Below are positions 3,007 through 32,248 of a DNA stretch of 47,372 nt, one piece after another. The DNA comes from Clostridiaceae bacterium. GTDB lineage: Bacteria > Bacillota > Clostridia > Acetivibrionales > DUMC01. The stretch spans positions 1-47,372 of the forward strand of contig DUMC01000123.1 of the NCBI GenBank assembly GCA_012840075.1, written 5' to 3'. The notes below the pieces were generated by a model. It searched no databases. It had not been told where the DNA came from and worked only from the letters and a program-made list of their open reading frames with translations. Made by a program: the position numbers and the translations under genes. Every line of letters begins with the position of its first letter. Positions within the stretch are counted from its first letter, which is position 1.

Positions 3007-3092
3007 CAGGACTATAGCAGGACTATATTTTGTTTAGTATAATTTTTGTATAATTATTTCAAGAGCTTTTTATTAGATAAGGTGTGATTGTT

Positions 3093-4175
3093 TTGAATGA
3101 GTACATAGCAGCTATTGATGGCGGTGCTACAAAAACCGATATGGTCTTGTGCACACTTGATGGCAGAGTATTAAATCGTGTAATTGGGGGTTCTACAAAT
3201 CCTAATGATATAGGATTTGAAAAATCTGTGGAAAGTTTAAGAAGCATGCTTGAAAAACTTCTTGAAAATCACGGAGGTTTAAAAGTACATTTGTACTCTT
3301 TTTATGCAGGACTTTCAGGTGGAGGCGGAGGAAATTATATAGAAAGATATAAGATGGCATTCAGAGAAATGCTTGTAAATACGACGAATATTTACAATGG
3401 AAGTGATGCCATTAATGCCCTGAACAGCGGTATAGGCTGTAATGACGGCATGGTGCTGATTGCCGGTACAGGCTCTGTAGCATTTGTCCGCAAGGATGGG
3501 AAGATTACACATGTAGGAGGATGGGGATACCTTTTAGATGACGCAGGCAGTGGTTATGATATAGGACGAAGAGGATTTCGTGCTGCACTTAGAGATTATG
3601 ACGGCAGAGGAGAAAGTACAATAATATTTGATCTATATAGTCAGCACCTTGCCGGACCGGTTTATAAATTTATCCCCGAAATTTATCAAAGAGGTAAGCA
3701 ATTCATAGCATCTTTTGCACCTCTCGTATTCGAAGCAGCAACCAAAGGAGATAAAGTAGCAAACACTATTCTTGATGAATGTGCCGCAGAACTTGCTTTA
3801 TTAGTTAAAGCCGGTGCAAGACACTTAAAAGAATCAGAGGGATTGTATAAGGTTGTACTTGCAGGAGGGTTATGGAAAGCTGGGGATACTTTGATTAACC
3901 GTTTTAAATCCAATCTGAGCAAAGACTTTTTACTCATAAAGCCGGAGCTTCCTCCTGTGTATGGGGCAGTTATCGAAGCTATATCCAGAGCGAATAAGGA
4001 ATATATTACGAGTCACAATTTTTCAGATGATAGTATACCTCATGATGAATGTAATGTATCGAGAAAGAGCAAAGAGAAAGAAAAATACTTGAAGATAGAA
4101 GTTGACAGAAGCTTTTATGAGAATTTTAAAAATTCATTAAATAATGCTGCAATAATTCATTTTCCTGAAAAGTAA
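3093..4175 (+). CDS. BadF/BadG/BcrA-family kinase, probable N-acetylglucosamine/N-acetylmuramate kinase
   Basis: The roughly 360-residue protein has the ASKHA ATPase fold: phosphate-1 motif AIDGGATKTDMVL at the N-terminus, GTGSVAF as phosphate-2, and an adenosine-type AGGLWKAG motif near residue 273. Family members phosphorylate N-acetylglucosamine or, in Clostridium (MurK), both GlcNAc and MurNAc. The next gene is murQ, which consumes MurNAc-6-phosphate, so a MurK-like role is the best inference. Two starts are possible: GTG 3084, which overlaps the AAGGTG ribosome site, and TTG 3093, eight bases after it; TTG is preferred. The last 50 residues are charged and poorly conserved-looking. No promoter is seen in the short gap after the upstream gene, so the two may be co-transcribed. 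Confidence 0.75.
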   Translation: MNEYIAAIDGGATKTDMVLCTLDGRVLNRVIGGSTNPNDIGFEKSVESLRSMLEKLLENHGGLKVHLYSFYAGLSGGGGGNYIERYKMAFREMLVNTTNIYNGSDAINALNSGIGCNDGMVLIAGTGSVAFVRKDGKITHVGGWGYLLDDAGSGYDIGRRGFRAALRDYDGRGESTIIFDLYSQHLAGPVYKFIPEIYQRGKQFIASFAPLVFEAATKGDKVANTILDECAAELALLVKAGARHLKESEGLYKVVLAGGLWKAGDTLINRFKSNLSKDFLLIKPELPPVYGAVIEAISRANKEYITSHNFSDDSIPHDECNVSRKSKEKEKYLKIEVDRSFYENFKNSLNNAAIIHFPEK

Positions 4176-4236
4176 AAAATTAAGAAAAATTTTATTTAAA
4201 TAGCATTATTAACATTTAGAAAACATTTGGAAAAAC

Positions 4237-4290
4237 CTTAACATTTATAACAGTCTTAACATTTATAACAGTCTTAACACTTATAACAGC
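4237..4290. repeat. three tandem copies of an 18-bp unit
   Basis: CTTAACATTTATAACAGT occurs at 4237-4254 and 4255-4272, and a third copy with two changes at 4273-4290. The array sits in the 250-base gap between the kinase gene and murQ. It could be a slipped-strand minisatellite; no protein-binding role is evident. Confidence 0.85.
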
Positions 4291-4425
4291 ATGTGAGAGA
4301 GTTTACACTTTAAGACAATTTATGATTAACTTGTTGGTATTTATCGTTGGTATTTATTCATTTGGTATTAATCGGTGATACATTAAAATATATGAAAAAG
4401 TAGTTTATTAGGAGGAAAAATTAAT

Positions 4426-5007
4426 ATGGAACTTGGACAACTGATAACCGAACAAAGAAATGAAAATACAATGAATATTGATAAACTGGATATTTCGGGT
4501 ATTCTAAAACTCATAAATGAAGAAGATAAAAAAGTTGCTTACTGTGTTGAAAAAGCGATACCGGATATTTCTAAAGCGGTAGAGTTGGTAGTAGAAGCAT
4601 TTAATAAAGGCGGAAGATTAATATATGTTGGTGCAGGGACAAGCGGTAGGCTGGCTATTGTTGACGCTTCTGAGTGTCCTCCAACTTTCGGTGTGCCTTT
4701 TGATATGGTGGTTGGCATTATAGCCGGAGGGGATAGTGCAATACGTACACCTATTGAAAATGTTGAAGATAATGAAGAGCAAGGACGTATTGATATAAGA
4801 AATCTGAACTGCTGTGAAAAGGATGTGGTTATGGGTATTGCCGCCAGTGGCAGAACACCGTATGTAATAGGTGCCTTGAAAGAGGCACGTAAGTTGGGTG
4901 CTAAAACAACATCTCTTGCTAACAATCCAAATTCGGTAACAGGAGTATCCCGGGACATTGCTGAAGAGTATCTTAATAAAGCTGGCAATTCCAAAAGGAT
5001 GCAATAA
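4426..5007 (+). pseudogene. murQ: murQ, N-acetylmuramic acid 6-phosphate etherase, with internal deletion
   Basis: MurQ cleaves the lactyl ether of MurNAc-6-phosphate to GlcNAc-6-phosphate in cell-wall sugar recovery. Residues 1-170 match the SIS-domain half very well: GAGTSGRLAIVDASECPPT carries E83, and E114 lies in ENVEDN; these are the two catalytic glutamates of the Escherichia coli enzyme at the same numbers. After LANNPNSV the reading jumps to TGVSRDIAEEYLNKAGNS, which looks like the helical C-terminal tail of the family. The segment between, about 100 residues including the second part of the SIS fold and the GSTRMKAGT-type loop, is absent, giving 193 residues against the usual 300. 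The ribosome site AGGAGG precedes ATG 4426. The product is probably inactive. Confidence 0.8.
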
Positions 5008-5250
5008 TAATGATTGAAAAACAAAAAGAGAAATAAATAACAAAAATAAAGATGGCATTAAAAAAAGAGGAAGCAGAATTTTGAGTATTCTAGGAAAATT
5101 GAGATTCAAAGAAAATCGAACTGGTACAAAGGTAAGAAAAGAGATCTTCAGATACCTCTTGATATGATATGTTAAAGATATAGTAAGATCAGATAAAATG
5201 ACTATTCAAGGATGCATTTATCAAATCAAATATTAAGGAGGCTGATTTCA

Positions 5251-6369
5251 ATGTCAAAAAGAGTAAAGGCCAGTCATGGTATAATTTGCAGGCTTTCAGA
5301 TGAAGAGATGGGTTACTTTGGGTGGCCGTCTGTAGCAAAAATGGATGACGGCACATTAGTAGTTGCTAGTTCGGGACTCAGAGGGTATCATGTGTGTCCG
5401 TGGGGAAAAACAGTTTTGCATTTCAGCAAGGATAACGGAAATACCTGGTCAGAACCTGTAATTGTGAATGATTCTCCCATTGATGATAGAGATGCAGGTG
5501 TAATTAGTCTTGGTGGTAAAAAGCTTCTTATTTCGTGGTTTACAAGTGACACAAGAATATATTTGAATAATGAGTGGGTACGGAAATCCATGAGCGAAGC
5601 AATGTTAAAGAAGTTTGAAGAAACAGTTGCTTCGTGGAGTGATGAAATGGTATATTCACATCTTGGTTCGTGGATAAGAATTTCAGAAGACGGAAGCAAG
5701 TGGGGTAATCCCATACGGGTACCGGTTACAGCTCCTCACGGTCCAATAAAGCTTTCTAATGGTAATCTTTTATACTTTGGGAAAGCAGCAGTTGCAGATA
5801 GGAATTTTCATTCTGAATTGCAAAATGGAATGATTAGAGCTTCGGTAAGCAAGGATGGAGGACTAACCTGGGAAGTGATTGGAGAAGTACCTATTCCTGA
5901 GGATACGGAAGCAGCCAATTTCCATGAACCTCATGCTGTAGAACTTAAATCCGGTAAAATTATAGGAATGATTCGATATCAACACAGTCAAAAAATAAAA
6001 AACTATGACCGTTTTACAATGTTCCAGACAGAATCTTTTGATGGAGGAAAAACCTGGTCTATCGCAAGACCTACAGGAGTTTCAGGTTCACCGCCTCACC
6101 TTCTGAGACATTCTTCAGGTGCTATTATCTGTGTTTATGGATACCGAGAGATACCATATGGTCAAAGAGCAATGATTAGTTATGATGAAGGTCAAACCTG
6201 GGATACGGATTATATCTTAAGAGATGACGGACCTGACAGTGATCTTGGTTATCCAGCATCGGTAGAGCTTGATGATGGCAGCATTTTTACAATATATTAT
6301 CAGAAATATGCAGCAGGTGAAAAAACTTCTTTACTGTGGACAAGGTGGGAATTACCTTTAAGAAAGTAA
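5251..6369 (+). CDS. BNR/Asp-box sialidase-like protein
   Basis: The 372-residue soluble protein has a six-bladed propeller signature with at least five Asp boxes: SKDNGNTW (from residue 59), SEDGSKW, SKDGGLTW, SFDGGKTW and SYDEGQTW. This is the fold of GH33 sialidases. However, where true sialidases carry the (F/Y)RIP arginine motif this protein reads YFGWPSV, so binding of a sialic acid carboxylate is doubtful; it may hydrolyse or bind another glycan. There is no signal peptide, implying action on imported oligosaccharides. ATG 5251 follows AAGGAGG at 5235-5241; an upstream ATG at 5212 in frame has no such site. It lies between murQ and the GH36 gene on the same strand. Confidence 0.75.
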   Translation: MSKRVKASHGIICRLSDEEMGYFGWPSVAKMDDGTLVVASSGLRGYHVCPWGKTVLHFSKDNGNTWSEPVIVNDSPIDDRDAGVISLGGKKLLISWFTSDTRIYLNNEWVRKSMSEAMLKKFEETVASWSDEMVYSHLGSWIRISEDGSKWGNPIRVPVTAPHGPIKLSNGNLLYFGKAAVADRNFHSELQNGMIRASVSKDGGLTWEVIGEVPIPEDTEAANFHEPHAVELKSGKIIGMIRYQHSQKIKNYDRFTMFQTESFDGGKTWSIARPTGVSGSPPHLLRHSSGAIICVYGYREIPYGQRAMISYDEGQTWDTDYILRDDGPDSDLGYPASVELDDGSIFTIYYQKYAAGEKTSLLWTRWELPLRK

Positions 6370-6560
6370 GCATGTGATTGATTTTAAACCTATTTCTTGT
6401 TAATTTTAACTTTGAAAATGTGACTGATTATAGACATCAATCTGATGTTCGATTTAGTGATAAATAATTGCTTTGGCAAGTTATTGTAAAAATATACCAT
6501 AATATAAAAGGTATTACATGGGCATTTGGTCTAGAATGAAAAATTGAGGAGGTTTACTCA

Positions 6561-8654
6561 ATGGTAAAACAAGAAGATTTTGAGTATTACAAGTTTGGAG
6601 TAAACAGCCGAAGATTTTGCAGCTTTATTAAAACAAGTAATTCTATTCATTTAGATAGGCTATTTGGAATACCTTGTGCTTTATTGAAAGGTAAATCTTT
6701 GGAGATAGCCGGATTAGACATGTTTAATATTGATACTGATTTAGGAAAAGTTCAGGGAAGCAAGTTTACTCTTGTTAAAGAGAAATTTACAGAAAATGGT
6801 TTCTTTATGACATGGGATATTGAAGATCTTAATCTTCGGATAGAAACTTCCTGGGAGTTTTGTACCAGTACATATATACTAAAAAGATCAGACTCAATTT
6901 GTAATACTGGTACAAAACCTGTAACTATTAATAAATGTCTTGCTAGGTTTTCCTTTCCGTCAGGACTATATGAAATATACAGTCAGGCAAGCAGTTGGTG
7001 CAGGGAAAATCAGGGAAGATGGCAAAAATTATATAATGGTACTTTTGAAATTGTATGTGAAGGAGGAAGAACTACACAAGGAAGCACTCCTTTTATATGT
7101 TTGCGCGAGACCGGACATGAACAGGCAGTAGCTTTCCATTTAATACCCAATGGAAACTGGGTAATGAGAACAATGACCAGAACAGGAGAGGGAGATTCAC
7201 TGCCAAGGCTTATTATTGATATAGGCATGTCGGATAATGAGTTTAGATACTGCCTTGAAGCAGGTGAAACGATTAAACTGCCGGAAATACTTATACAAGG
7301 AATTGACGGAGGAGAACCTTATAAATGCGTATCGGATTTGCATGAGTATCTCCTAAAAAATACTTTAAATAGAGATTATAGACCTGCACCTGTCGTTTAT
7401 AACACATGGTTTGACGATTTTGATTATTTGAATGTTAATAGACTTCGTAATCAATTAAAAGCTGCAAAGAAAATAGGATGTGAGGTTTTTGTTATAGACG
7501 CCGGGTGGTATGGAGCAGGAGAAGGAAGCTGGAGTGAAAAAGTAGGAGATTGGCGTGAACGAACAGATGCAGCATTTTGCGGTAAGATGTTTGAGTTTTC
7601 CGAGGAAGTACGCAGTGAAGGATTAGGTTTTGGAATTTGGCTGGAACCTGAACGTGTAAGTATTAATGCTCCGGTTTTCAAAGAACATAAGGATTGGTTT
7701 ATAAAGTCGCAAGAGAACTGGTATTATCCTGATCTCAGCCGCAAAGAAGTGTATGACTACTATCTGGAAGTTATTTCAGGATTGATAGAAAAATACGGGT
7801 TGGCTTGGATCAAGGTGGATTTTAACTTTGAATTGAGCAATGACCCGTATAAGAAAGAGTTATATGGTTATTACAAAGCATGGTACAAACTTCTTGATGA
7901 ACTTCATCGTAAATATCCTCATGTTTTCTTGGAAGGATGTTCAAGCGGAGCCATGAGGCTTGATTTAAGCACATTAAAACATTTTGATTGCCATTTCTTA
8001 AGTGACAATGTGAATCCAAAGGATGTTTTGAGGATATATCAGAATGCGCTTTTAAGACTGCCTCCGGGGCTTTTGGGGAAATGGATTGTACTCCGTTCAG
8101 TGGGAAAGACCATTGCACAATATGGTACTCCAATTGAACAAGCACGGGAAACAATAGTAATTCCCATGGGAGCTACATGGGAAGGCACTGAAAAAGTTGA
8201 TTTGGATTTTGCAGTAAGAGTAGGCTTAGCAGGAGCGGCAGGATTTAGCGGAGATATTTCATCTCTTTCGGAAGAAGTACTGGAAAGGTTAAAGTTTCAT
8301 GTTGACTTTTATAAAGTTTGGAGGAGTAATATTTTTAACTCAAAAGCTTATCTTTTAACGCCACCTGCAGAGCTTAAAGACAATAAAGGTTGGGCTGCAT
8401 ATCAGCTTCAAGATATTAATAGTGATGTTAATTTAGTTTTTATATATAGGTTAGACGATTCAGTAAAGAAAAAATATTTTTATTTGTGCGGACTTAAACC
8501 GGATATGGAATATAAAGTATGGAAGCAGGATGAGTCTGAAGCCGATGCACAAGTTTTTAGTGGAGAACAACTTATGAATGAAGGTATCTGTGTGGAATTA
8601 TCAAATCGTTACAATGGGGAAATATTTATTGTTGTTGGATGCCAGGAGTCGTAG
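6561..8654 (+). CDS. GH36 alpha-galactosidase
   Basis: The 697-residue product has the GH36 order: N-terminal beta-supersandwich (1 to about 270), catalytic TIM barrel beginning at YNTWFDDFDYLN, and a C-terminal beta domain. The barrel shows FVIDAGWYG, GIWLEPERVS, the nucleophile region WIKVDFNFE with D420, and the acid/base region LSDNVNP with D482. The family removes alpha-1,6-linked galactose from raffinose-type oligosaccharides and galactomannan side chains. No signal peptide is present, so it works on imported substrate in the cytoplasm. GAGGAGG precedes ATG 6561. The gap to the sialidase-like gene is 191 bases, with no evident terminator. Confidence 0.88.
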   Translation: MVKQEDFEYYKFGVNSRRFCSFIKTSNSIHLDRLFGIPCALLKGKSLEIAGLDMFNIDTDLGKVQGSKFTLVKEKFTENGFFMTWDIEDLNLRIETSWEFCTSTYILKRSDSICNTGTKPVTINKCLARFSFPSGLYEIYSQASSWCRENQGRWQKLYNGTFEIVCEGGRTTQGSTPFICLRETGHEQAVAFHLIPNGNWVMRTMTRTGEGDSLPRLIIDIGMSDNEFRYCLEAGETIKLPEILIQGIDGGEPYKCVSDLHEYLLKNTLNRDYRPAPVVYNTWFDDFDYLNVNRLRNQLKAAKKIGCEVFVIDAGWYGAGEGSWSEKVGDWRERTDAAFCGKMFEFSEEVRSEGLGFGIWLEPERVSINAPVFKEHKDWFIKSQENWYYPDLSRKEVYDYYLEVISGLIEKYGLAWIKVDFNFELSNDPYKKELYGYYKAWYKLLDELHRKYPHVFLEGCSSGAMRLDLSTLKHFDCHFLSDNVNPKDVLRIYQNALLRLPPGLLGKWIVLRSVGKTIAQYGTPIEQARETIVIPMGATWEGTEKVDLDFAVRVGLAGAAGFSGDISSLSEEVLERLKFHVDFYKVWRSNIFNSKAYLLTPPAELKDNKGWAAYQLQDINSDVNLVFIYRLDDSVKKKYFYLCGLKPDMEYKVWKQDESEADAQVFSGEQLMNEGICVELSNRYNGEIFIVVGCQES

Positions 8655-16073: not shown

Positions 16074-17327
16074 TCATGTAATATCTTTCCACGTGTCATA
16101 ATGAAAATAGCATATTCCGTTATTCTTTTGATCGCTGATGCTATTTTGGGTATGTATATTGATATCCATTACAATATTTTTATATTCATCCAGCCTGTTA
16201 GCTGAAATGCTATATTCGTCTGTCCTAAGCAAACCAAAATACATAGGGATTTTTCTTTTAATTTTTTTCAGTTGTTTTGTGACAACATCTTTATAGTTTT
16301 CAGGAGACAGCCAATAATCCATTGGACAAAGGAAATCAACCAGGCCTTCATCTGCCCATTTCCACCATTCCTGTCCAAAATGTTTATACTCACTGGAAGG
16401 AGATAAAGGTTCATTTCTTAATTCATTGCCGTATGGAGAGTTGTACCATATAGCTGCAGATAACTGTGCATCGCTCTTAACTGAACATATGGATGTTTTT
16501 ATACACCTTACAAGGTTAGTTATAGTATCTGCGTGGAACTTATCCCATGAAACCTGGCAGTTGCTCAAAATCCATTTGGCTTTTTCGTTAGTTGTTTTTA
16601 ATTCACCGGGAATTTTTATTTTACTATGTTCCTGAAACAATTCAAGACAGCGGTCGCAAAAACAAAAATAGCACCTTCTGCGCAAAACTACACTTTTACC
16701 TATAGGGGGATCCATGTAAGAATTTTCTACTTTCTCTATAAAATAAGTAGTCTTAGAGCCGTCTGCCATTTCCAATTTAATTGGATATCCTTCTTTTAAA
16801 ATAAGGATAAGTTGTCCTGCATTCTTAGTGTTGATATCCAATATGCTGTCATAATAAAAATATCTTATAAAATCCAAATGAATACCTGATAACTTGTTGA
16901 ATGTTTTAAGAATATCTGAGCAGTAATTTGCTACTAAAGTTTTAACGCCATCGCTTGTTGGATCAAAAAGAAAACCACGGCCGCCAAGTGGTTCTTCCCA
17001 ATTTGATATGCCATGGTAATCCACGCAATAGTGGTTTTTTCCCTGAAGAGGCAGGCTGTTCTTGTCTTGAGTTATGCTTAAAAGGGTAGAGATCATACCA
17101 TGAACTTCGATGTTGTTTTCTGTACACTTATCAACGAGAGCATCAATAATTTTTATGCGAGAGTTATTAGCATGCTCACTTCTAGTTTTTAAATCCATCG
17201 GTGAAAATTGCAGCAGAAGTTTCGCTACATTATTCCTGATGCACCACGATATAAGTTGATCAATATGACCGATGTCCTTAATACTTCGACCTAAATACAG
17301 CCATGCAGCATTTTGTAAGTTTCTCAT
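16074..17327 (-). CDS. GHL10-type putative glycoside hydrolase
   Basis: The 417-residue product resembles the family-10-like glycosyl hydrolases (GHL10/DUF187 relatives): a TIM barrel with an N-terminal AAWLYLGRS strand, SGIHLDFIRYFYYD as the conserved strand with a likely catalytic aspartate, and VDFLCPMDYWLSPENYK as the late barrel strand. A CYFCFCDRCLELFQ cysteine group near residue 220 is unusual and could bind metal. There is no signal peptide. The start at 17327 is chosen because AGAGGGGGT lies seven bases upstream; the frame is open to 17375. It is transcribed divergently from the GH78-like gene from a promoter overlapped by the shared palindromic operator. Confidence 0.6.
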   Translation of the reverse strand: MRNLQNAAWLYLGRSIKDIGHIDQLISWCIRNNVAKLLLQFSPMDLKTRSEHANNSRIKIIDALVDKCTENNIEVHGMISTLLSITQDKNSLPLQGKNHYCVDYHGISNWEEPLGGRGFLFDPTSDGVKTLVANYCSDILKTFNKLSGIHLDFIRYFYYDSILDINTKNAGQLILILKEGYPIKLEMADGSKTTYFIEKVENSYMDPPIGKSVVLRRRCYFCFCDRCLELFQEHSKIKIPGELKTTNEKAKWILSNCQVSWDKFHADTITNLVRCIKTSICSVKSDAQLSAAIWYNSPYGNELRNEPLSPSSEYKHFGQEWWKWADEGLVDFLCPMDYWLSPENYKDVVTKQLKKIKRKIPMYFGLLRTDEYSISANRLDEYKNIVMDINIHTQNSISDQKNNGICYFHYDTWKDIT

Positions 17328-17453
17328 TATTTGTACCCCCTCTGCAATTTGCTTTTTCGTTCCTCTACATTGCAATCTTATTGTACATACTAAATAGTTA
17401 TACGTAAGATTATTAAGATTATCACAAGGTTATCAACATATGCATTATATGCA

Positions 17454-17491
17454 TATTATAATTATACTGACTGGTCAGTATAATTATAATA
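17454..17491. promoter_or_regulatory. 38-bp palindromic TetR-type operator between divergent genes
   Basis: Two perfect 18-base arms (17454-17471 and 17474-17491) flank a central TG. The core ACTGAC-TG-GTCAGT (17466-17479) is identical to the core at 22850-22863 upstream of the TetR gene. A -10-like TATAAT lies three bases outside the core on each side (17457-17462 plus strand, 17483-17488 minus strand), so a bound dimer would block both divergent promoters. Confidence 0.8.
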
Positions 17492-17511
17492 CTTAGTATA
17501 GCAAAAGTCAA
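17483..17511 (-). promoter_or_regulatory. promoter of the GHL10-type gene
   Basis: On the minus strand TTGACT (17506-17511) and TATAAT (17483-17488) are separated by exactly 17 bases. The -10 box lies inside the operator palindrome. Confidence 0.7.
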
Positions 17512-17608: not shown

Positions 17609-20443
17609 TTGAAACGGTATAATTCTTGTAATAGTAGTGAAAATGCTTTTATTAACAGCAAGGCTTCATGGATCTGGTATCATGACATAACAGACAAAGA
17701 AAGCAGGAAACGGTTAAAAAATAAAGATTACATGGCTTGTAGCGAAACAGACAACAAAGAGGGAAATAGCATCGGCAATACAGGAAAATACAATGACAAT
17801 TCAAATCTTAATGAATATGTAGAATTCCTACACGAGTTTTATGTAAGCAGTACAGATGTCAATGTGGACAATACAATACTTTATATATCAGCAGATAGCG
17901 ATTATGCAGTATTCTTGAATGGTAAGTTTATTAATTGTGGTCAATATGATGATTTCCCCGACAGAAAGGTATACGATGTCCTTGATTTAAGTTATAATCT
18001 GCAGCATGGGAAGAATGTACTCGCGATAGCTGTATATTACCAGGGAGAGGGAAGCTTTCAGTACAAGAAAGGAAATCCGGGATTGATTTACCTGCTAAAG
18101 AGAGGAGATAAAGAAATTTGCTACAGTTCGTCTCAGACATTATGCAGAATGTCTGCCGCATGGAAAAATGGTAAAACACCCATGATCACATTTCAGCTTG
18201 GATTTACCTTTCAATTTGACGCAAGAAAATGCGATAATTGGACAGAAGAAGGATATGTTCCTCAAATAGCACAATTTAATAGCAATTGTGATAATAACTG
18301 TGATAGTAATTATGAAGATAATAATGATTTTGAAAATAAAAATTGTTTATTGTGGAATAATGCCCTGGAACTGGCTGACGGCAAGGTATGTCCAAGAGAA
18401 AGGTTGTACAGGCGTCCGATAAAGAAACTTGAATTTTTGAATAAAATAAATGCAAGAATTATTGCCCAGGGTTATTTGATAAGAAAAGGGAATTGCGACG
18501 ATATTCCCGCACAATTAATGCAAACCGATTTTTTGTCGTACTGCAATTCTGTTGATTTCTTTAAGCAGGGAGTAAAAATGGAAGGTTTGACATTTTATTT
18601 GGATGTGAACTCGGAGCCTGAGATAGATTTTGATAAAATTAACTCTGATTTGAATAAAATCAGTAATTATGTCAATGAAAGTATGAATGAAAATATAAAC
18701 GAAAATATGAATAAAATCAATAATGGTGCCAATAAAACAAGAGGTGCTTATATTGTCTTGGATCTGGGAAGAGAAGAAGCAGGTTTGTTCTCTATGGACA
18801 TTCAAGCTTCCGAAGGGACTATAATTGATATTGGGTATGGAGAACATTTAGACGATATGCGGGTAAGAACATGGATTGGACAAAGGAATTTCGCAAGCAG
18901 ATACATATGTAAAAAAGGAAGACAGAATTTTACATATTATTTCAAACGGTTTGGATGCAGGTATATACAGCTTCACATTACAAATGCAAAAGGTTTGTTT
19001 AAAATTTATTATGCAGGTCTTATACCATGGGAATATTCGGTTTCAAGAAGGGGACATTTCAAGTGCAACGATAGTTTACATAATAAAATATATGAAGTTT
19101 CCGAAAGAACCTTACACTTATGTATGCATGAGCATTATGAGGATACTCCCTGGAGAGAGCAAGCACTTTATGCCATGGATTCAAGGAATCAGGCCCTTTG
19201 CGGATATTATTGTTTTGGCGAATATGAAATGCCAAGAGCCTGTTTTGAACTGCTTGGAATGAGCCTTCAGAATGATGGCTTTTTGGAAATTTGTGCTCCA
19301 TGTAATGCTCCCCTTACAATTCCGTCTTTCACAATGGCGTGGATAACTGAAGTATGGGAATATATTTTATATAGCGGTGATTTGGATTATCTCAACTTTG
19401 CCATGCCGAAAGTAAACTATATCCTGGACAAACATATATCAACTATGCAGAATGGCCTTTTGCCTGTCCCTGTAGATAAATATTACTGGAATTTTTACGA
19501 ATGGTCACAAGGTATGGATGGTGGAAATGAATTATATAGAATTGATCCCAGCCGATACAATAATAAAGTTATTCAATATGAAGCTCCATATATTTTGTTT
19601 TTCTGCCTTGCGCTTAAAGCTGCAGCAAACATGGCAAAGCTTAGTAATGATGAATTCATGTATAAAAAGTACATGGATCACTTTAATATTATTAAGGAGA
19701 ATTTTCATTCCACGTTTTGGGATGAACAAGAAGAGGCATATTTAACATTTTATAGAAAGATAGCGCCTGACAGCATGTATGAAGAGATTACACATAGATG
19801 TGATGTTAATAAAGATAATGATAATGTGGACAAAAATGATACTGTGAATCATGATGATGTGGATATTTTTGAAAAATTACGCTCTGATAATAAAAAGATA
19901 AGACATTTCGCCGAATTAACTCAGGCACTGGCTATATGTGCAGGTATATGCTCCGGTGATACAGCTTCAATTCTGAGACGTAAGTTATCTTTAAAAGATA
20001 ATAATATGGTTAAGTGTACAATAAGTCATTCTATTTATAAGTATGAGGCGCTTTTGGGTGAGCCTGAAAAATATGCAAAACAGGTTTTTGAGGAAATTGC
20101 AGAAGATTGGGGTTATATGCTGTATAATGGAGCTACAAGTTTCTGGGAAACCCTGCAGGGATCCCTGGATTTTTACCATGCCGGAAGCCTGAGTCATGGA
20201 TGGTCTGCAGTACCTATCTATCTTTATGGAAGATATATCCTGGGTATAGAACCGATAAGCCCTGGCTTCAGAGAGTTTAGAGCCGAACCGTTATTATCGG
20301 TTTTCGATAGATTTTCAGGTAAAGTTCCAACACCGTATGGTGATATTGAAATAAGATGGGATAAAGATAGCAAAGGAGTTAGCACCTCTTCTAATGTGCC
20401 GGAAATTAAATATCCTAATGAGTTACATCGCATTGGAGATTGA
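17609..20443 (+). CDS. GH78 alpha-L-rhamnosidase-like protein
   Basis: The 944-residue product has N-terminal beta-sandwich domains (ASWIWYHDI, then DYAVFLNGKFINCGQYD, a jelly-roll typical of the family) and a C-terminal six-hairpin barrel. The catalytic region reads EDTPWREQALYAMD at 511-524 (acidic residues E511, D512, E517, D524), and SFWETLQG and GSLSHGWSAVPIYLY form the later active-site strands. The family hydrolyses alpha-L-rhamnosides of pectin and plant glycosides. Three Asn/Asp-rich insertions interrupt it at about residues 224-246, 344-377 and 729-752. The start is TTG 17609 after AAAGGTG. There is no signal peptide. Transcription is divergent from the GHL10-type gene under the shared TetR-type operator. 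Confidence 0.8.
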   Translation: MKRYNSCNSSENAFINSKASWIWYHDITDKESRKRLKNKDYMACSETDNKEGNSIGNTGKYNDNSNLNEYVEFLHEFYVSSTDVNVDNTILYISADSDYAVFLNGKFINCGQYDDFPDRKVYDVLDLSYNLQHGKNVLAIAVYYQGEGSFQYKKGNPGLIYLLKRGDKEICYSSSQTLCRMSAAWKNGKTPMITFQLGFTFQFDARKCDNWTEEGYVPQIAQFNSNCDNNCDSNYEDNNDFENKNCLLWNNALELADGKVCPRERLYRRPIKKLEFLNKINARIIAQGYLIRKGNCDDIPAQLMQTDFLSYCNSVDFFKQGVKMEGLTFYLDVNSEPEIDFDKINSDLNKISNYVNESMNENINENMNKINNGANKTRGAYIVLDLGREEAGLFSMDIQASEGTIIDIGYGEHLDDMRVRTWIGQRNFASRYICKKGRQNFTYYFKRFGCRYIQLHITNAKGLFKIYYAGLIPWEYSVSRRGHFKCNDSLHNKIYEVSERTLHLCMHEHYEDTPWREQALYAMDSRNQALCGYYCFGEYEMPRACFELLGMSLQNDGFLEICAPCNAPLTIPSFTMAWITEVWEYILYSGDLDYLNFAMPKVNYILDKHISTMQNGLLPVPVDKYYWNFYEWSQGMDGGNELYRIDPSRYNNKVIQYEAPYILFFCLALKAAANMAKLSNDEFMYKKYMDHFNIIKENFHSTFWDEQEEAYLTFYRKIAPDSMYEEITHRCDVNKDNDNVDKNDTVNHDDVDIFEKLRSDNKKIRHFAELTQALAICAGICSGDTASILRRKLSLKDNNMVKCTISHSIYKYEALLGEPEKYAKQVFEEIAEDWGYMLYNGATSFWETLQGSLDFYHAGSLSHGWSAVPIYLYGRYILGIEPISPGFREFRAEPLLSVFDRFSGKVPTPYGDIEIRWDKDSKGVSTSSNVPEIKYPNELHRIGD

Positions 20444-22817: not shown

Positions 22818-22846
22818 TTGACATAGAGTTAAAATTTTGATATTAT
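22818..22846 (+). promoter_or_regulatory. promoter of the TetR regulator gene
   Basis: TTGACA (22818-22823) and TATTAT (22841-22846) with a 17-base spacer. The operator core starts three bases after the -10, the same geometry as at 17454-17491. Confidence 0.75.
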
Positions 22847-22849
22847 TAT

Positions 22850-22863
22850 ACTGACTGGTCAGT
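22850..22863. promoter_or_regulatory. TetR-type operator, autoregulatory
   Basis: ACTGAC-TG-GTCAGT, a palindrome with six-base arms around TG, overlaps the expected transcription start of the TetR gene. It is the same core as in the GHL10/GH78 intergenic palindrome, but here the flanking arms are not symmetric. Confidence 0.75.
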
Positions 22864-23076
22864 CAAAAATTTAAAGAATTAAATGTACACATGAAATCAA
22901 CATTCCAGCATGAGTTGCCAATGATGTAATTAGTAGGGTTTGCAAATAAATAAGAAAAAAATATAGGTAAATATAAGAAAGCAAGATTTGCAATAACAGA
23001 AAAATTATAAGAACTAACAAAAGAAATATTAATAAAATAAAAATTATAAATAGTTGTATTGAGGGAGAATGCCAAG

Positions 23077-23643
23077 ATGAGAGAACGTTTAATAAATGCA
23101 GCCGTAAGTGTATTCAGCAAGAAGGGTTTTTATAAAGCTTCTATGGACGATATCGCAGCGGAAGCTGAAGTAGCAAAGGGGACCTTATATTACTATTTTA
23201 AAAATAAATCCGAGCTTTTTAAAACCGTTGTGGTAGAGGGAATCAATTATTTAACAGATGAGCTTATAAAGATTGTTAACAATTCAAATGATTCAATTGA
23301 GAACATTATGAAACTCCTCATAAAAAAGAATATTGACTTTTATCTTGAATATCATGAGCTTGCAAATATAGTCTTGCATGAAATAACAAATGGAATTGAT
23401 GAGGATGTACTTAATGAAATTATAACTGCTAAGGACAGATATATCAGTTTTTTGGCAGATCTTTTATCACAAGGATATGATCAAGGAATAATCCGCTATA
23501 GTAACTTTAACGTGACAGCGGCAGGTATAGTCGGAATGATTGACGGTGTATGTAAGTATTATTTAAGAAACGCCAGCTCAATTGATAGGAAACAGTTGAT
23601 AGAGCACGTTTCTAATATAGTTATTAATGGATTGTTTCCGTAG
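23077..23643 (+). CDS. TetR/AcrR-family transcriptional regulator
   Basis: The 188-residue protein has the classic N-terminal helix-turn-helix RERLINAAVSVFSKKGFYKASMDDIAAEAEVAKGTLYYYFKNK at residues 2-45 (shown here in parts: FSKKGFYKASMDDIA, AKGTLYYYFKNKSELF) and a helical ligand domain with no recognisable specificity. ATG 23077 is preferred because GAGGGAG lies nine bases upstream; a TTG at 23059 is in frame but poorly placed. Its promoter carries the operator core found also between the GHL10 and GH78 genes, so autoregulation and control of those glycosidases is inferred. The ligand is probably a sugar derivative, but TetR proteins also respond to drugs or acyl compounds. Confidence 0.88.
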   Translation: MRERLINAAVSVFSKKGFYKASMDDIAAEAEVAKGTLYYYFKNKSELFKTVVVEGINYLTDELIKIVNNSNDSIENIMKLLIKKNIDFYLEYHELANIVLHEITNGIDEDVLNEIITAKDRYISFLADLLSQGYDQGIIRYSNFNVTAAGIVGMIDGVCKYYLRNASSIDRKQLIEHVSNIVINGLFP

Positions 23644-23823
23644 CTATATACGTTTATTTTCAGGTTAGTTACACATTTAGAGTTAATGACTGTGTATTGC
23701 ATTTAAGACAAAAGAGCATTTATAAAATTACTCGGCCAATCAATTTAAGTTTAATAGTAATGAATTTAATAATAAATTAAATAAATTTATAAATTTATAT
23801 TAAAGAAAGGAGATGTTTTAAAA

Positions 23824-24123
23824 ATGTCAGATTTCAATTACAAACTAAAACTAATTGAAGCTCCAACCGAAGGTTCTCCGGGCTCAAGAATATCACTGAA
23901 AGTTAATGTGGAGGAGGCAACTGAGGAGGTTAGCAGAGTCTACATTTCAGTTCCGGAGTATGGTATTTATGAAGTACTAAGAAAAGAAACTGATACTCTA
24001 TTTAGCCTGAATTACTACATACCATATGATGCTCCATATGGAAAATATGATGTATCAATTTGGGCAGTAAGTAAAAGTAACAAAAGAGGACCGGCTACAA
24101 ATATAATATTTACGGTTAAGTAG
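23824..24123 (+). CDS. small beta-sandwich protein of unknown function
   Basis: The 99-residue protein follows a strong AAAGGAGATG site. Alternating hydrophobic strands (SRISLKVNVEEA, VSRVYISVPEYGIYEVL, FSLNYYIPYDAPYGKYDVSIWAV, ATNIIFTVK) suggest one Ig-like/bacterial adhesin-type sandwich domain, of the kind normally repeated in secreted proteins. Here it stands alone with no signal peptide or anchor. It is 180 bases downstream of the TetR gene and may share its transcript. I do not recognise a specific family. Confidence 0.6.
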   Translation: MSDFNYKLKLIEAPTEGSPGSRISLKVNVEEATEEVSRVYISVPEYGIYEVLRKETDTLFSLNYYIPYDAPYGKYDVSIWAVSKSNKRGPATNIIFTVK

Positions 24124-24223
24124 AAGTGACTTGAAATTTCCTTGTGGCAAAATAGTATAAATGTTTTCATTTTAAAGATCTTTTTCAACACTCAAGACAG
24201 TAATAAGCTTTAGATCTCATAAT

Positions 24224-24351
24224 AAAAAAATACCTCCTAAAGATGATGACTTTTGAACAATTAAAATCTTCAATTAAATATATTTTACGAGATTTATACC
24301 TCTTGTTGGCTTTTACTTAATAATTTATTCATCAAAAGGAGGTATTTTTTT
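24224..24351. repeat. 128-bp segment bounded by inverted repeats; bidirectional terminator or MITE-like element
   Basis: AAAAAAATACCTCCT (24224-24238) pairs perfectly with AGGAGGTATTTTTTT (24337-24351), and after a three-base internal loop GATGA (24242-24246) pairs with TCATC (24329-24333). The interior is about 80 bases, AT-rich. The arms give a stem flanked by A and T runs on both sides, so it could terminate transcription of the small gene and of the convergent M55 gene; a TA next to each CCTCC end also fits a small transposon with TA target duplication. Confidence 0.6.
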
Positions 24352-24368
24352 TAATTATATTATAAATT

Positions 24369-25160
24369 TTACAACCTTGCCAGGGCTTCTTCCATGGAAT
24401 TACCTGTTACTTCATATGTACGCCCGTCAATGATTCTGGCATATGGCTTTGAATGAATATTTGGAATGAGTCCACGCTCTACAAGTTCCAGCCGGAGTGT
24501 TACCGGGGTTGATACCTTATATGGTCTAATTTCCCCTGAAATTGCTTTGCGAACGGCTTCAGCAGCTTTTTCGCGAATTAATTTATGAGCTTTTTCCATG
24601 GGTAAGTGTCTTGCGCCGTAAATAGAGATGCCTTTCTTCACTTGTGCAGTAACTACGCCTGGAAGCAGTTCGGCGGCTTCAGCACATACTTTATCATCTC
24701 CGGAAACCATGATAACCGGCTTATTGTAATCTCCCGCTACAGCTGCATCAATTGCTACCTCACCGCTTTTTCTGCCGTTTATCCAGAAATTTTGCCAGCT
24801 TAATGATGACATAGTGTGCTCTAATACAGCCATTGGTGTACCGGCCATAGCATGATATCCTAACAAAACAACTGCGTCACATTCTTCAATACCAGGCATT
24901 CTTACGGTTCCGCTGTTCCCAATCACATATTCGTATGCGAGTGGCGATAGTTTATGCCAGAGCACATTAGTACCGGAACCATGAGCATCCCTAACAATGA
25001 TTTTGTCAGCTCCACCTGCTTTCAAGCCTTCAACGCAAACATTTATCTCCTGGGTCATATATTCCCTGAGTTCAGCATACAGTGGTCCGCTGGACATTAC
25101 TTGTTCTCTTAGGTGTATACCGCTTATTCCTTCAGCGTCTACCATTACATAAATATTCAT
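24369..25160 (-). CDS. M55-family D-aminopeptidase (DppA-like)
   Basis: M55 enzymes are zinc-dependent peptidases that remove N-terminal D-amino acids from short peptides such as D-Ala-D-Ala and form decameric rings. The 263-residue length fits DppA. The metal ligands are in place: D8 and E10 in VDAEGISG, H60 in RDAHGSG, H103 in GYHAMAG, H115 as the catalytic-site histidine, and E134 in GEVAIDAA. The ribosome site AAGGAGTG precedes the ATG. It lies 80 bases downstream of the DapA/NanA-family gene on the same strand, so the pair is probably an operon, consistent with recovery of cell-wall peptides and amino sugars. Confidence 0.88.
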   Translation of the reverse strand: MNIYVMVDAEGISGIHLREQVMSSGPLYAELREYMTQEINVCVEGLKAGGADKIIVRDAHGSGTNVLWHKLSPLAYEYVIGNSGTVRMPGIEECDAVVLLGYHAMAGTPMAVLEHTMSSLSWQNFWINGRKSGEVAIDAAVAGDYNKPVIMVSGDDKVCAEAAELLPGVVTAQVKKGISIYGARHLPMEKAHKLIREKAAEAVRKAISGEIRPYKVSTPVTLRLELVERGLIPNIHSKPYARIIDGRTYEVTGNSMEEALARL

Positions 25161-25239
25161 TTTTGATTTTCACTCCTTCTTAGAATCATATAATGATAAT
25201 TGTTAAAATTAGCAAGTATTTTTATTGTATTGTATAATT

Positions 25240-26142
25240 TTAGTTAATAAATTTATAAATCTTATCATAGTCATCATTATTTAATTCATAACCTAATTGA
25301 GAATTATAAGATTCACATATTCCTTTTAGTTTTAATGCAGCTTTTATGGAGTGAGTGAAATTTGAAAAACTCTCTTTATATCCTCCCCTTATTGAATTAA
25401 AAATTTCAAATAATTCGTTAATGTTATTTTGTAGTTCCGCAACACCGTCTATATCTTTATTTCTTCCTTTTTCGAGTATATTAGTAAATAATTCAGGGTT
25501 AACAGCTGCTAAGGCATATATAAAATTTCCGCCAAACAATGAAGCATATGCTGCCAATCTTTCAGAACCTGTATAAATCAGAAAATCATCGCGTCCTTTA
25601 AAAATACTTAACAATCTTAATAGCTTATCAGCTTCTGAACTGGTATCTTTTATACCTATGATATTTTTATGCTTACTCAAGTCTTTTACAAGTTCCAGGC
25701 TAATATTGTTAGGTAATCTCATAGGTTGGTTATATAATATAAGTGGTATAGGACTTTTATCGGCAACGATAGTAAAAAATTTATACAACTCATCTTGAGA
25801 ATACTTGTAATAGTAGGGTGGAGTAAGGACTACAGCGTCTATTTTCTTATTAGTATATAAATCTAAGTTTCTTAGGACATTTTCAATACAAGCATCGCTA
25901 ATCATTACCATGACAGGTAACTTCCCGTTTATTTCATCTATGGCCATATTAACAAAATTTAGACGTTTTTCCTGTGTAATAGTAAAATATTCTCCTGTTG
26001 ATGAAAGAAGAAAAACCCCGTTTATACCACAGTTAATATAGTAGCGCATCAGTCTTCTGGTTCCTTCTTCATCTATATCTCTGCTTTTCGTAAAAGGGGT
26101 GGGTGATGCAACAATGACTCCTTTCAATCTACTAATATCCAA
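25240..26142 (-). CDS. dihydrodipicolinate synthase/N-acetylneuraminate lyase family protein
   Basis: The roughly 300-residue class I aldolase shows LKGVIVASPTPFT at the N-terminus, LLSSTGEYFTIT (STGE pyruvate-binding loop), the tyrosine in LILYNQPMR and the Schiff-base lysine in IIGIKDTSSEADK. The family splits or forms 2-keto-acid sugars (sialic acid, KDG) or makes dihydrodipicolinate. Location in a glycan locus beside sialidase-like genes makes a sialic-acid or keto-deoxy sugar lyase attractive, but specificity residues do not decide. The frame is open to ATG 26169, yet GAAAGGATG stands before TTG 26142, which also gives the usual length. It heads the M55 operon. Confidence 0.8.
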   Translation of the reverse strand: MDISRLKGVIVASPTPFTKSRDIDEEGTRRLMRYYINCGINGVFLLSSTGEYFTITQEKRLNFVNMAIDEINGKLPVMVMISDACIENVLRNLDLYTNKKIDAVVLTPPYYYKYSQDELYKFFTIVADKSPIPLILYNQPMRLPNNISLELVKDLSKHKNIIGIKDTSSEADKLLRLLSIFKGRDDFLIYTGSERLAAYASLFGGNFIYALAAVNPELFTNILEKGRNKDIDGVAELQNNINELFEIFNSIRGGYKESFSNFTHSIKAALKLKGICESYNSQLGYELNNDDYDKIYKFIN

Positions 26143-26169
26143 GGCAATCATCCTTTCATTAAAATTCAT

Positions 26170-30991: not shown

Positions 30992-32248
30992 ATGGGAATA
31001 AAAATAAAGGAAACCATAGATTCATATCTAAGTTACAAAGATTATTATATCTTAGGTCCTTCAATAGCTTATTGTCCCAATACAAAGGCTAAAGGGTATA
31101 GGGACATGCTTCTAATGGCAGATCTATTTAATGCATCTGACAGCAACACGGGTACAATGCTATGGCGCTCAACAGATGGAGGCAAAACATGGACAATACA
31201 AGATTATATTGAAAAATCCTATGTTTATGATTTCAATAACAGTTGGGTAAAAAGCGGATATGGGGCAATATATTCCGATGAAAAAACAGGTGTTATGATT
31301 TTTTTGGCAAACGATACATACTGGGAAAACAACAAGATTCAATCATTATGGAAGAAAAGAACGCTTTATTATCGCCTTTCATTTGACAATGGATATACCT
31401 GGACGAATAAAAAGTATATTATTCAGAAAGGAAAAGATCCTTTTGGTCAAACTTATGACAAAATACATTTTTTAAAAGATGTGTACTTTGGGAGAAACAT
31501 GGCGGCTTCAGTTTCGCCGTTGATAATAAAGACTTATGATGGAAGTATTTTGGTAAGTGTCCAGGTTCAAATTACCAATGAGAAAGGTGAATTGATAAAT
31601 CCGACGGGATGGGGGTATATGAAAGCCGGGGCAATTAAAGGTAGTTGGAACGAGGAAAATCTTGATTATGAATGGGATCTCGGTGAATATGCATCAGTTT
31701 CACTTAACGAGTCAACTAGAGGTGTGTATGAGCCGGCATTCGGCAAAATAAGAGATAACAAGTTAATAATGGTAATGCGTGGAAGTAATGCGTCAAGAAG
31801 AGATGAAATTATGGGAGTTAAATTCTATTCCACCTCCAAAGATAATGGATATACATGGTCAAAACCCTTGCCGTTAAAATATGATGACGATACTGTTATG
31901 TATTCTTCGTCCTGCATCCCCAAACTTATTAATCATACCAATGGAAGGTTATACTATATCGGTGTGATCAACGATTCGAATCCTGACGGGAATTTACCCA
32001 GGTATCCCCTTTGTATTGCGGAAATCGATATGGAAAATTGCTGCGTAATTAAGGATTCTGTTACAGTTATAGATACTAAACGCAAAAACCAGGATGATTC
32101 AGCCAAAGATTCTCATGTAGTGGATTTCTCCAATCATGGCATATATGAAGACAAAAATACGGGAGATATCATTGTATTTGCTCCTTTTAGACCAAACCTG
32201 AAAAATTATGCATGTGTGCTAAATAAATATGTTATCAGTGTTTCCTAA
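30992..32248 (+). CDS. BNR/Asp-box sialidase-like protein
   Basis: The 418-residue soluble protein has Asp boxes STDGGKTW, SFDNGYTW and SKDNGYTW and a propeller-like pattern throughout; N-terminal YYILGPSIAY stands where sialidases have the (F/Y)RIP arginine motif, and no arginine is present there. YEPAFGKIRDNKLIMVMRGS near residue 250 resembles the blade with the conserved glutamate and a later arginine. It is intact in length. GGAGGT at 30975-30980 precedes ATG 30992 by 11 bases. Substrate unknown; a glycan-active or glycan-binding role in the cytoplasm is inferred. Confidence 0.7.
   Translation: MGIKIKETIDSYLSYKDYYILGPSIAYCPNTKAKGYRDMLLMADLFNASDSNTGTMLWRSTDGGKTWTIQDYIEKSYVYDFNNSWVKSGYGAIYSDEKTGVMIFLANDTYWENNKIQSLWKKRTLYYRLSFDNGYTWTNKKYIIQKGKDPFGQTYDKIHFLKDVYFGRNMAASVSPLIIKTYDGSILVSVQVQITNEKGELINPTGWGYMKAGAIKGSWNEENLDYEWDLGEYASVSLNESTRGVYEPAFGKIRDNKLIMVMRGSNASRRDEIMGVKFYSTSKDNGYTWSKPLPLKYDDDTVMYSSSCIPKLINHTNGRLYYIGVINDSNPDGNLPRYPLCIAEIDMENCCVIKDSVTVIDTKRKNQDDSAKDSHVVDFSNHGIYEDKNTGDIIVFAPFRPNLKNYACVLNKYVISVS

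Follow-up and report, generated by a model that had tools for sequence, protein, structure and literature searches.

A TetR-family regulator and a putative operator shared by its own promoter and a divergent pair of glycosidase promoters in a Clostridiaceae bacterium

The window, i.e. the whole stretch of DNA that was analysed, is contig C103 at its full length of 47,372 nucleotides, with a GC content of 34%, from an assembly of 3.78 Mb in 193 contigs that is 97% complete (genome G000). The gene tetR (23077–23643, + strand) is preceded by an RBS-like GAGGGAG and encodes, read from its ATG, a regulator of 188 aa with TetR_N and TetR_C_24 domains. It is followed by a gene (23824–24123, +), overlooked in the original prediction, for a 99-aa single-domain Ig/FN3-like protein without a Pfam match at E ≤ 0.001. 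A divergent pair of glycosidase-like genes lies 5.4 kb from tetR. One (16074–17327, −) encodes a GHL10-domain protein of 417 aa from its ATG, whose match to PF02638 (E 4.2e-09; 36.4 bits, cut-off 27.9) spans only profile positions 188–291 of 311, and which weakly matches Cwp19 (E 0.0024). The other (17609–20443, +; TTG start, assigned mechanically) encodes a GH78 alpha-L-rhamnosidase-like protein of 944 aa, in which the 6-hairpin, concanavalin-like and C-terminal rhamnosidase domains (PF17389, PF05592 and PF17390) all score above their cut-offs. Its nearest solved relative is RhaB (2okx, E 4.8e-56), presumably from Bacillus sp. GL1, and residues D567, E572, D579 and E841 of RhaB, which we take to be catalytic, align with D, E, D and E of the GH78 protein. 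Further amino-sugar or glycan genes are found nearby (3084–8654, 24369–26169 and 30992–32248); they encode a BadF-type kinase, a SIS-domain protein, BNR (sialidase-like) repeats, GH36, a DHDPS-family aldolase and an M55 peptidase.

The exact 14-mer ACTGACTGGTCAGT occurs at two places only in the whole 193-contig, 3.78 Mb assembly, and both are in the window. Operator 1 (22850–22863) lies 3 nt past the −10 element of tetR, after TAT at 22847–22849. Operator 2 (17466–17479) is in the intergenic region of the divergent GHL10 and GH78 genes; it is flanked by TATAAT-TAT on both sides (17457–17465, +; 17488–17480, −) and is held, together with both −10 elements, in a 38-bp palindrome (17454–17491) that is perfect except for its two central bases. 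The two operators have 19 identical bases in common, ATTATACTGACTGGTCAGT. The original prediction that the order −10, TAT, operator at 22841–22863 is repeated on both strands at 17457–17488 was thus confirmed.

Promoters were scored as matches out of 12 to TTGACA-N17-TATAAT at every position of the 47 kb window on either strand. The tetR promoter (22818–22846, +) consists of TTGACA at 22818–22823, a 17-nt spacer and TATTAT at 22841–22846 (11/12), and the GHL10 promoter (17483–17511, −) of TTGACT at 17511–17506, a 17-nt spacer and TATAAT at 17488–17483 (11/12). With a 17-nt spacer, these are the only two window positions that score at least 11/12, and each ends 3 nt before an operator. Spacers of 16 or 18 nt add three positions of at least 11/12 (8832, 28015 and 582, all +), none of them near an operator. 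The GH78 promoter (17433–17462, +) has TCAACA at 17433–17438, an 18-nt spacer and TATAAT at 17457–17462 (10/12; 6/12 with a 17-nt spacer). The geometry had been called identical: this holds for tetR and the GHL10 direction and, as to the 3-nt distance, throughout, but not for the weaker −35 element and longer spacer of GH78, and the −10 hexamers themselves differ (TATTAT at tetR, TATAAT at the glycosidase genes). Transcription generally starts about 7 nt past a −10 element, which would place the start inside the operator at each promoter; operator 1 is accordingly expected to cover the tetR transcription start. Because the 38-bp palindrome includes both −10 elements, the GHL10 and GH78 promoters lie opposite each other with one operator between them, within which both transcripts would begin. 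The spacer region of the weak GH78 promoter (17433–17470) also contains ATATGCAT twice, possibly the site of a second regulator. No known RNA element was found above gathering score in the leaders between 14500 and 25500.

The protein encoded by tetR belongs to the TetR family: TetR_N (PF00440) scores 63.6 bits against a Pfam cut-off of 24, TetR_C_24 scores 36.8 bits, also above its cut-off, and the AlphaFold model (pLDDT 93.6) has nine helices in the all-helical fold of the family. The sequences for this model came from a scan of named genomes, in which the best 80 of 436 loci were mostly of 22–33% identity, with some short N-terminal matches of 35–48%; 32 of the 80 were used, solely as alignment depth. 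Foldseek gave 666 PDB matches at E ≤ 0.001, the best being FadR, including stearoyl-CoA complexes, with FasR lower down. As is usual in the family, a putative palindromic operator is present at the gene's own promoter, and it also occurs upstream of the homologues in two relatives, G002 and G055. A TetR_N search found five proteins in this genome and eight in G002. The stretch VAKGTLYY, presumably located at the recognition helix, is identical in the tetR homologues of G000, G002 and G055 and absent from the four other TetR_N proteins found in G000, and the best operator match upstream of the 11 other TetR genes of G000 and G002 is 10/14 (322–450 bases upstream of the TetR_N match searched). 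As VAKGTLYY and the operator are both missing from the four other TetR genes found in this genome, the two sites most likely belong to the regulator in the window. Each of those four was considered as an alternative owner and rejected, none having the operator or the recognition helix.

Of 58 genomes of the order, three yielded a close tetR homologue (E ≤ 1e-25), namely this one, G002 (48% identity) and G055 (41%). Among 391 genomes evenly drawn from the class, with at most the best eight candidates per genome, this genome alone passed E ≤ 1e-28. The 14-mer ACTGACYRGTCAGT likewise occurs in 3 of the 58 genomes: twice here, twice in G002 and once in G048. Footprinting upstream of tetR in relatives, as had been proposed for checking the prediction, revealed that the palindrome is retained in every genome with a close tetR (this one, G002 and G055), as the 14-mer in two and as the 12-mer core in the third; none has kept the gene and lost the operator. 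The corresponding Fisher figure (2/3 vs 1/55, p 0.005) rests on three genomes and carries no argument.

The two 14-mers of G002 are on different contigs. One precedes the tetR homologue, and the other precedes a 98-aa homologue of the 99-aa gene, whose promoter reads TTGACA-17-TATAAT-TAT-operator (12/12). The G002 tetR promoter is off-pattern, as the best candidate (11/12) ends 18 nt and not 3 nt before the operator, which counts against the proposed regulon. In G055 the tetR homologue is preceded by TTGACA-17-TATTAT-3 nt-CCTGACCAGTCAGT and followed by an ABC exporter gene. The tetR gene of G002 is again in the company of glycosidase-like genes. The gene divergent to it matches GH20 domain 2 weakly and below cut-off, starts 450 bp beyond the operator behind a weak promoter (8/12) and is followed by a GHL6/GH42M gene. 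The 14-mer of G048 is directly before a 187-aa gene that has no Pfam match, and the sequence 3 nt ahead of it makes a poor promoter (4/12). The TetR gene in the vicinity is not closely homologous to tetR; this type of palindrome is therefore not exclusive to the regulator described here. Other palindromes were seen upstream of other TetR genes: two of these genes, in G002 (L117) and G281 (L149), have TAACGAACGTTA in common, and a third (L115) has TGAATGAACATTCA, which we take to resemble a FadR-type box.

The background level of such sequences was estimated in several ways. With up to two mismatches, ACTGACTGGTCAGT has four strand matches (two places) in the window, where 0.10 would be expected, and a count of four was reached in none of 100 shuffles. 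In the assembly, two mismatches add three places (contigs C27, C91 and C116), and none of the five TetR genes found lies on these contigs. With up to three mismatches, the operator has 86 strand matches in the whole genome and the reversed-pattern control also has 86, so copies looser than two mismatches carry no signal. The 12-mer core CTGACYRGTCAG occurs at 31 places in 23 of the 58 genomes of the order. Most of these (22/31) fall within stop-to-stop frames of 120 aa or more, and the examined flanks of these 22 contain no TetR gene. Four of the nine others adjoin a TetR gene (this window, G002, G055 and G048), another two correspond to operator 2 and to the site before the small gene in G002, and three (L120, L140 and L144) have no TetR gene in the examined flanks and are counted against the regulon. 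Flanks of about 1.1–2 kb on each side were examined for most places and wider ones for L097, L098, L102, L103, L143 and the window, with TetR genes listed up to 3 kb away. The TetR profile applied to the flanks was home-made and built partly from the four TetR proteins found beside the sites, which are therefore not independent finds of the profile; three of the four were also covered by the homologue search, the TetR_N search and the Pfam scan. At L144 (1984–1997, in G003), CTGACCAGTCAG lies outside long frames, with no TetR gene in view, and adjoins TTATTTATA, as in G002.

The 99-aa gene starts 180 bp after tetR, a gap that is long for an operon and counts against a joint transcript. The two genes are nevertheless possibly co-transcribed, and this appears likely because no terminator-like site was found between them and no promoter-like site on the + strand from 23541 to 24130. 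Two promoter-like matches inside tetR (23452–23481, 10/12; 23512–23540, 9/12) could serve the 99-aa gene; the whole scanned stretch contains 15 such matches, compared with 11.4 ± 3.2 in shuffles. An imperfect inverted repeat (24224–24351) with 23-nt arms of 87% identity, 82 nt apart and ending in T runs, lies between the convergent 99-aa and M55 D-aminopeptidase genes and has the look of a two-way terminator; the terminator scan, which covers short loops only, does not list it.

Homologues of the 99-aa protein (E ≤ 0.001) are present in 2 of the 58 genomes of the order, this one and G002 (60% identity), and in 2 of the 391 genomes of the class sample, this one and G281 (42%), a member of another order. 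None was found at this threshold in G055, which counts against the regulon. In G281 the homologue starts 11 bp after a TetR gene, whose product has another recognition helix and scores above the cut-off for TetR_N and below it for TetR_C_24; TAACGAACGTTA, a palindrome except for its two central bases, lies 5 nt after a TATAAT. Two type I phosphodiesterase-like genes adjoin this TetR/99-aa pair (L149, 7535–9385). AlphaFold predicts the 99-aa protein to be a seven-stranded sandwich (pLDDT 86.5, from a two-row alignment). Foldseek matched this model to Ig/FN3-type and other beta-sandwich domains, including the FN3 modules of CbhA, a fold too widespread to point to a function. Inspection by eye showed no evident signal peptide. 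Sequence searches of PHROGs and the PDB gave nothing significant (best E 0.094 and 0.58), and Pfam gave weak hints of DUF4625 and MG2 for the family, the best (E about 3e-4) in the G002 member.

The partner that the regulator and its relatives have in common is thus the 99-aa gene, rather than the glycosidases. It follows the TetR gene in G000 and G281, the latter TetR having another helix and palindrome, and in G002 it stands alone under a copy of the tetR operator. A TetR protein and a small cytosolic Ig/FN3-like protein might on these grounds form a recurring two-gene module, in which the small protein could take part in sensing, for example by binding a glycan or lipid, while the glycosidases would be an output particular to this species; this is a speculation that we consider unlikely as it stands. 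The protein is nonetheless the most interesting part of an otherwise clear but ordinary kind of circuit, as an unstudied Ig/FN3-like protein to which none of the family libraries used gave a match, exposed as the regulator's partner in relatives and a candidate co-sensor or functional output.

We consider it quite probable that the TetR protein is an autorepressor acting on ACTGACTGGTCAGT, and that its regulon consists of tetR, the 99-aa gene and the GHL10 and GH78 genes, all controlled by repression. A TetR dimer would bind the operator and cover the transcription start just past the −10 element, so that three promoters are off. At tetR the protein would repress its own promoter, with the 99-aa gene behind it probably in the same transcript, and a single operator would serve both overlapping divergent promoters of the GHL10 and GH78 genes. 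Release would come from a small molecule that arises in the presence of the enzymes' substrate, and the enzymes, the small protein and further repressor would then be induced jointly. Binding, repression, co-transcription and induction we infer from the DNA sequence. As only two copies of the operator were found in the genome, located at these promoters, the repressor very probably controls itself, the 99-aa protein and the two enzymes. Both central elements of the original prediction, autoregulation of tetR and the link of the regulator to the GHL10/GH78 promoter region, are upheld at this level, the former with an operator upstream of tetR in 3/3 genomes. The glycosidase branch, seen in one genome only, counts against the proposal. 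The claim that the regulator skips leuB and nagB also fits. The start of nagB, the divergent neighbour, is about 405 bp away from tetR. Between this start and the operator nagB has its own promoter-like sequence (22791–22764, −, 10/12), and for this reason it is not favoured as a direct target.

As to the trigger, the original proposal that the ligand is a breakdown product of the GH78/GHL10 substrate, such as a rhamnoside, found no support: fold and sequence point to FadR-like, acyl-CoA-sensing TetR proteins. A rhamnoside ligand is possible, and GusR of E. coli, in the available part of its description, offers a precedent of a TetR protein that answers to a glycoside (PMC9881133). Alternatively, a regulator of a FadR-like branch could be released by a lipid-like or foreign compound, and the rhamnosidase-like enzyme could strip sugar from a glycosylated toxin or a glycolipid instead of feeding on polysaccharide. 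We regard this as possible though somewhat unlikely; it is compatible with the proposed circuit, as the DNA logic is the same and the trigger alone differs. The FadR structures among the best matches, with their stearoyl-CoA complexes and with FasR lower down, the TetR_C_24 domain and the ABC exporter gene after the G055 homologue agree with it, whereas the FadR equivalog model NF053878 stays far below its cut-off (80.5 vs 200 bits), similarity of fold does not fix the ligand of a TetR protein, and tetR of G002 is divergent from glycosidase-like genes.

Control of tetR and the 99-aa gene alone, with operator 2 bound by another regulator or representing a recent passive copy without effect, would agree with the occurrence of GHL10 in 1 of 58 genomes (it was not found at E ≤ 1e-10 in the other 57 of the order) and with the fact that both 14-mer sites of G002 belong to the tetR and 99-aa gene homologues. 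We judge it quite unlikely, however, as operator 2 matches without a mismatch, forms the centre of a 38-bp palindrome and overlaps two promoters, with 3 nt after the −10 element in each as at tetR, and the four other TetR genes found in the genome are all without the operator. Chance repetition of a 14-mer palindrome, for which the many 12-mer cores inside open frames (22/31 places) and the equal numbers of loose copies and reversed-pattern matches (86 each) could be cited, is highly improbable and was rejected in view of the uniqueness of the exact form, the promoter geometry and the association with the same two genes in a relative.

The proposed circuit of tetR, the 99-aa gene and the glycosidase genes resembles several known systems in part. 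Whole-length fold similarity is seen with FadR of Bacillus and FasR of Mycobacterium (TM-score 0.80–0.90), and FadR is also the best NCBIfam model for the window's TetR protein, in line with the TetR_C_24 domain. Unlike FadR proper, the protein has only 23–25% identity and remains below the NF053878 equivalog cut-off; the FadR box, TGAATGA..TCATTCA, differs from ACTGACTGGTCAGT, and the inferred targets are not beta-oxidation genes. RhaB, the closest solved relative of the GH78 target with its acidic residues kept, indicates similarity at the level of the family only. The gene gusR adjoins gusA, in contrast to the inferred targets 5 kb away from tetR here. GusR (UidR) of E. coli is described, in the part of the source available, as a TetR-family repressor of beta-glucuronidase that is released by glucuronides (PMC9881133). 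Both systems would thus combine a TetR-family repressor with operators at a glycosidase promoter, and the enzyme of GusR is, as far as that source goes, induced by a glycoside; the sequence match to UidR (6ayi) covers residues 2–54 only, i.e. the DNA-binding part. In rhamnose and rhamnoside regulons, as far as the available part of their description extends, rhamnosidase genes are under local regulators of the AraC, DeoR and LacI families (PMC3870299); the single occurrence of 'TetR' in that text belongs to the name of a kit. The locus described here would be similar in placing a rhamnosidase gene under a local regulator and differs in that the regulator is of the TetR family. A TetR-controlled GH78 gene, and 'TetR family regulator' together with 'alpha-L-rhamnosidase', were not found in the literature searched, nor were ACTGACTGGTCAGT in print or 'TetR' together with CTGACCGGTCAG. 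A TetR protein can be presented with a precise putative operator, a short list of candidate targets and a promoter layout that lends itself to testing. Streptomyces TetR proteins encoded less than 200 bp from a divergent neighbour are those with the highest likelihood of controlling that neighbour, according to the available part of the study (PMC3511530). The rule as given there does not apply to this locus, with the nagB start about 405 bp and the inferred outside targets 5.4 kb away, and this is a case in which assigning TetR targets by neighbourhood would miss a target pair 5 kb from the regulator.
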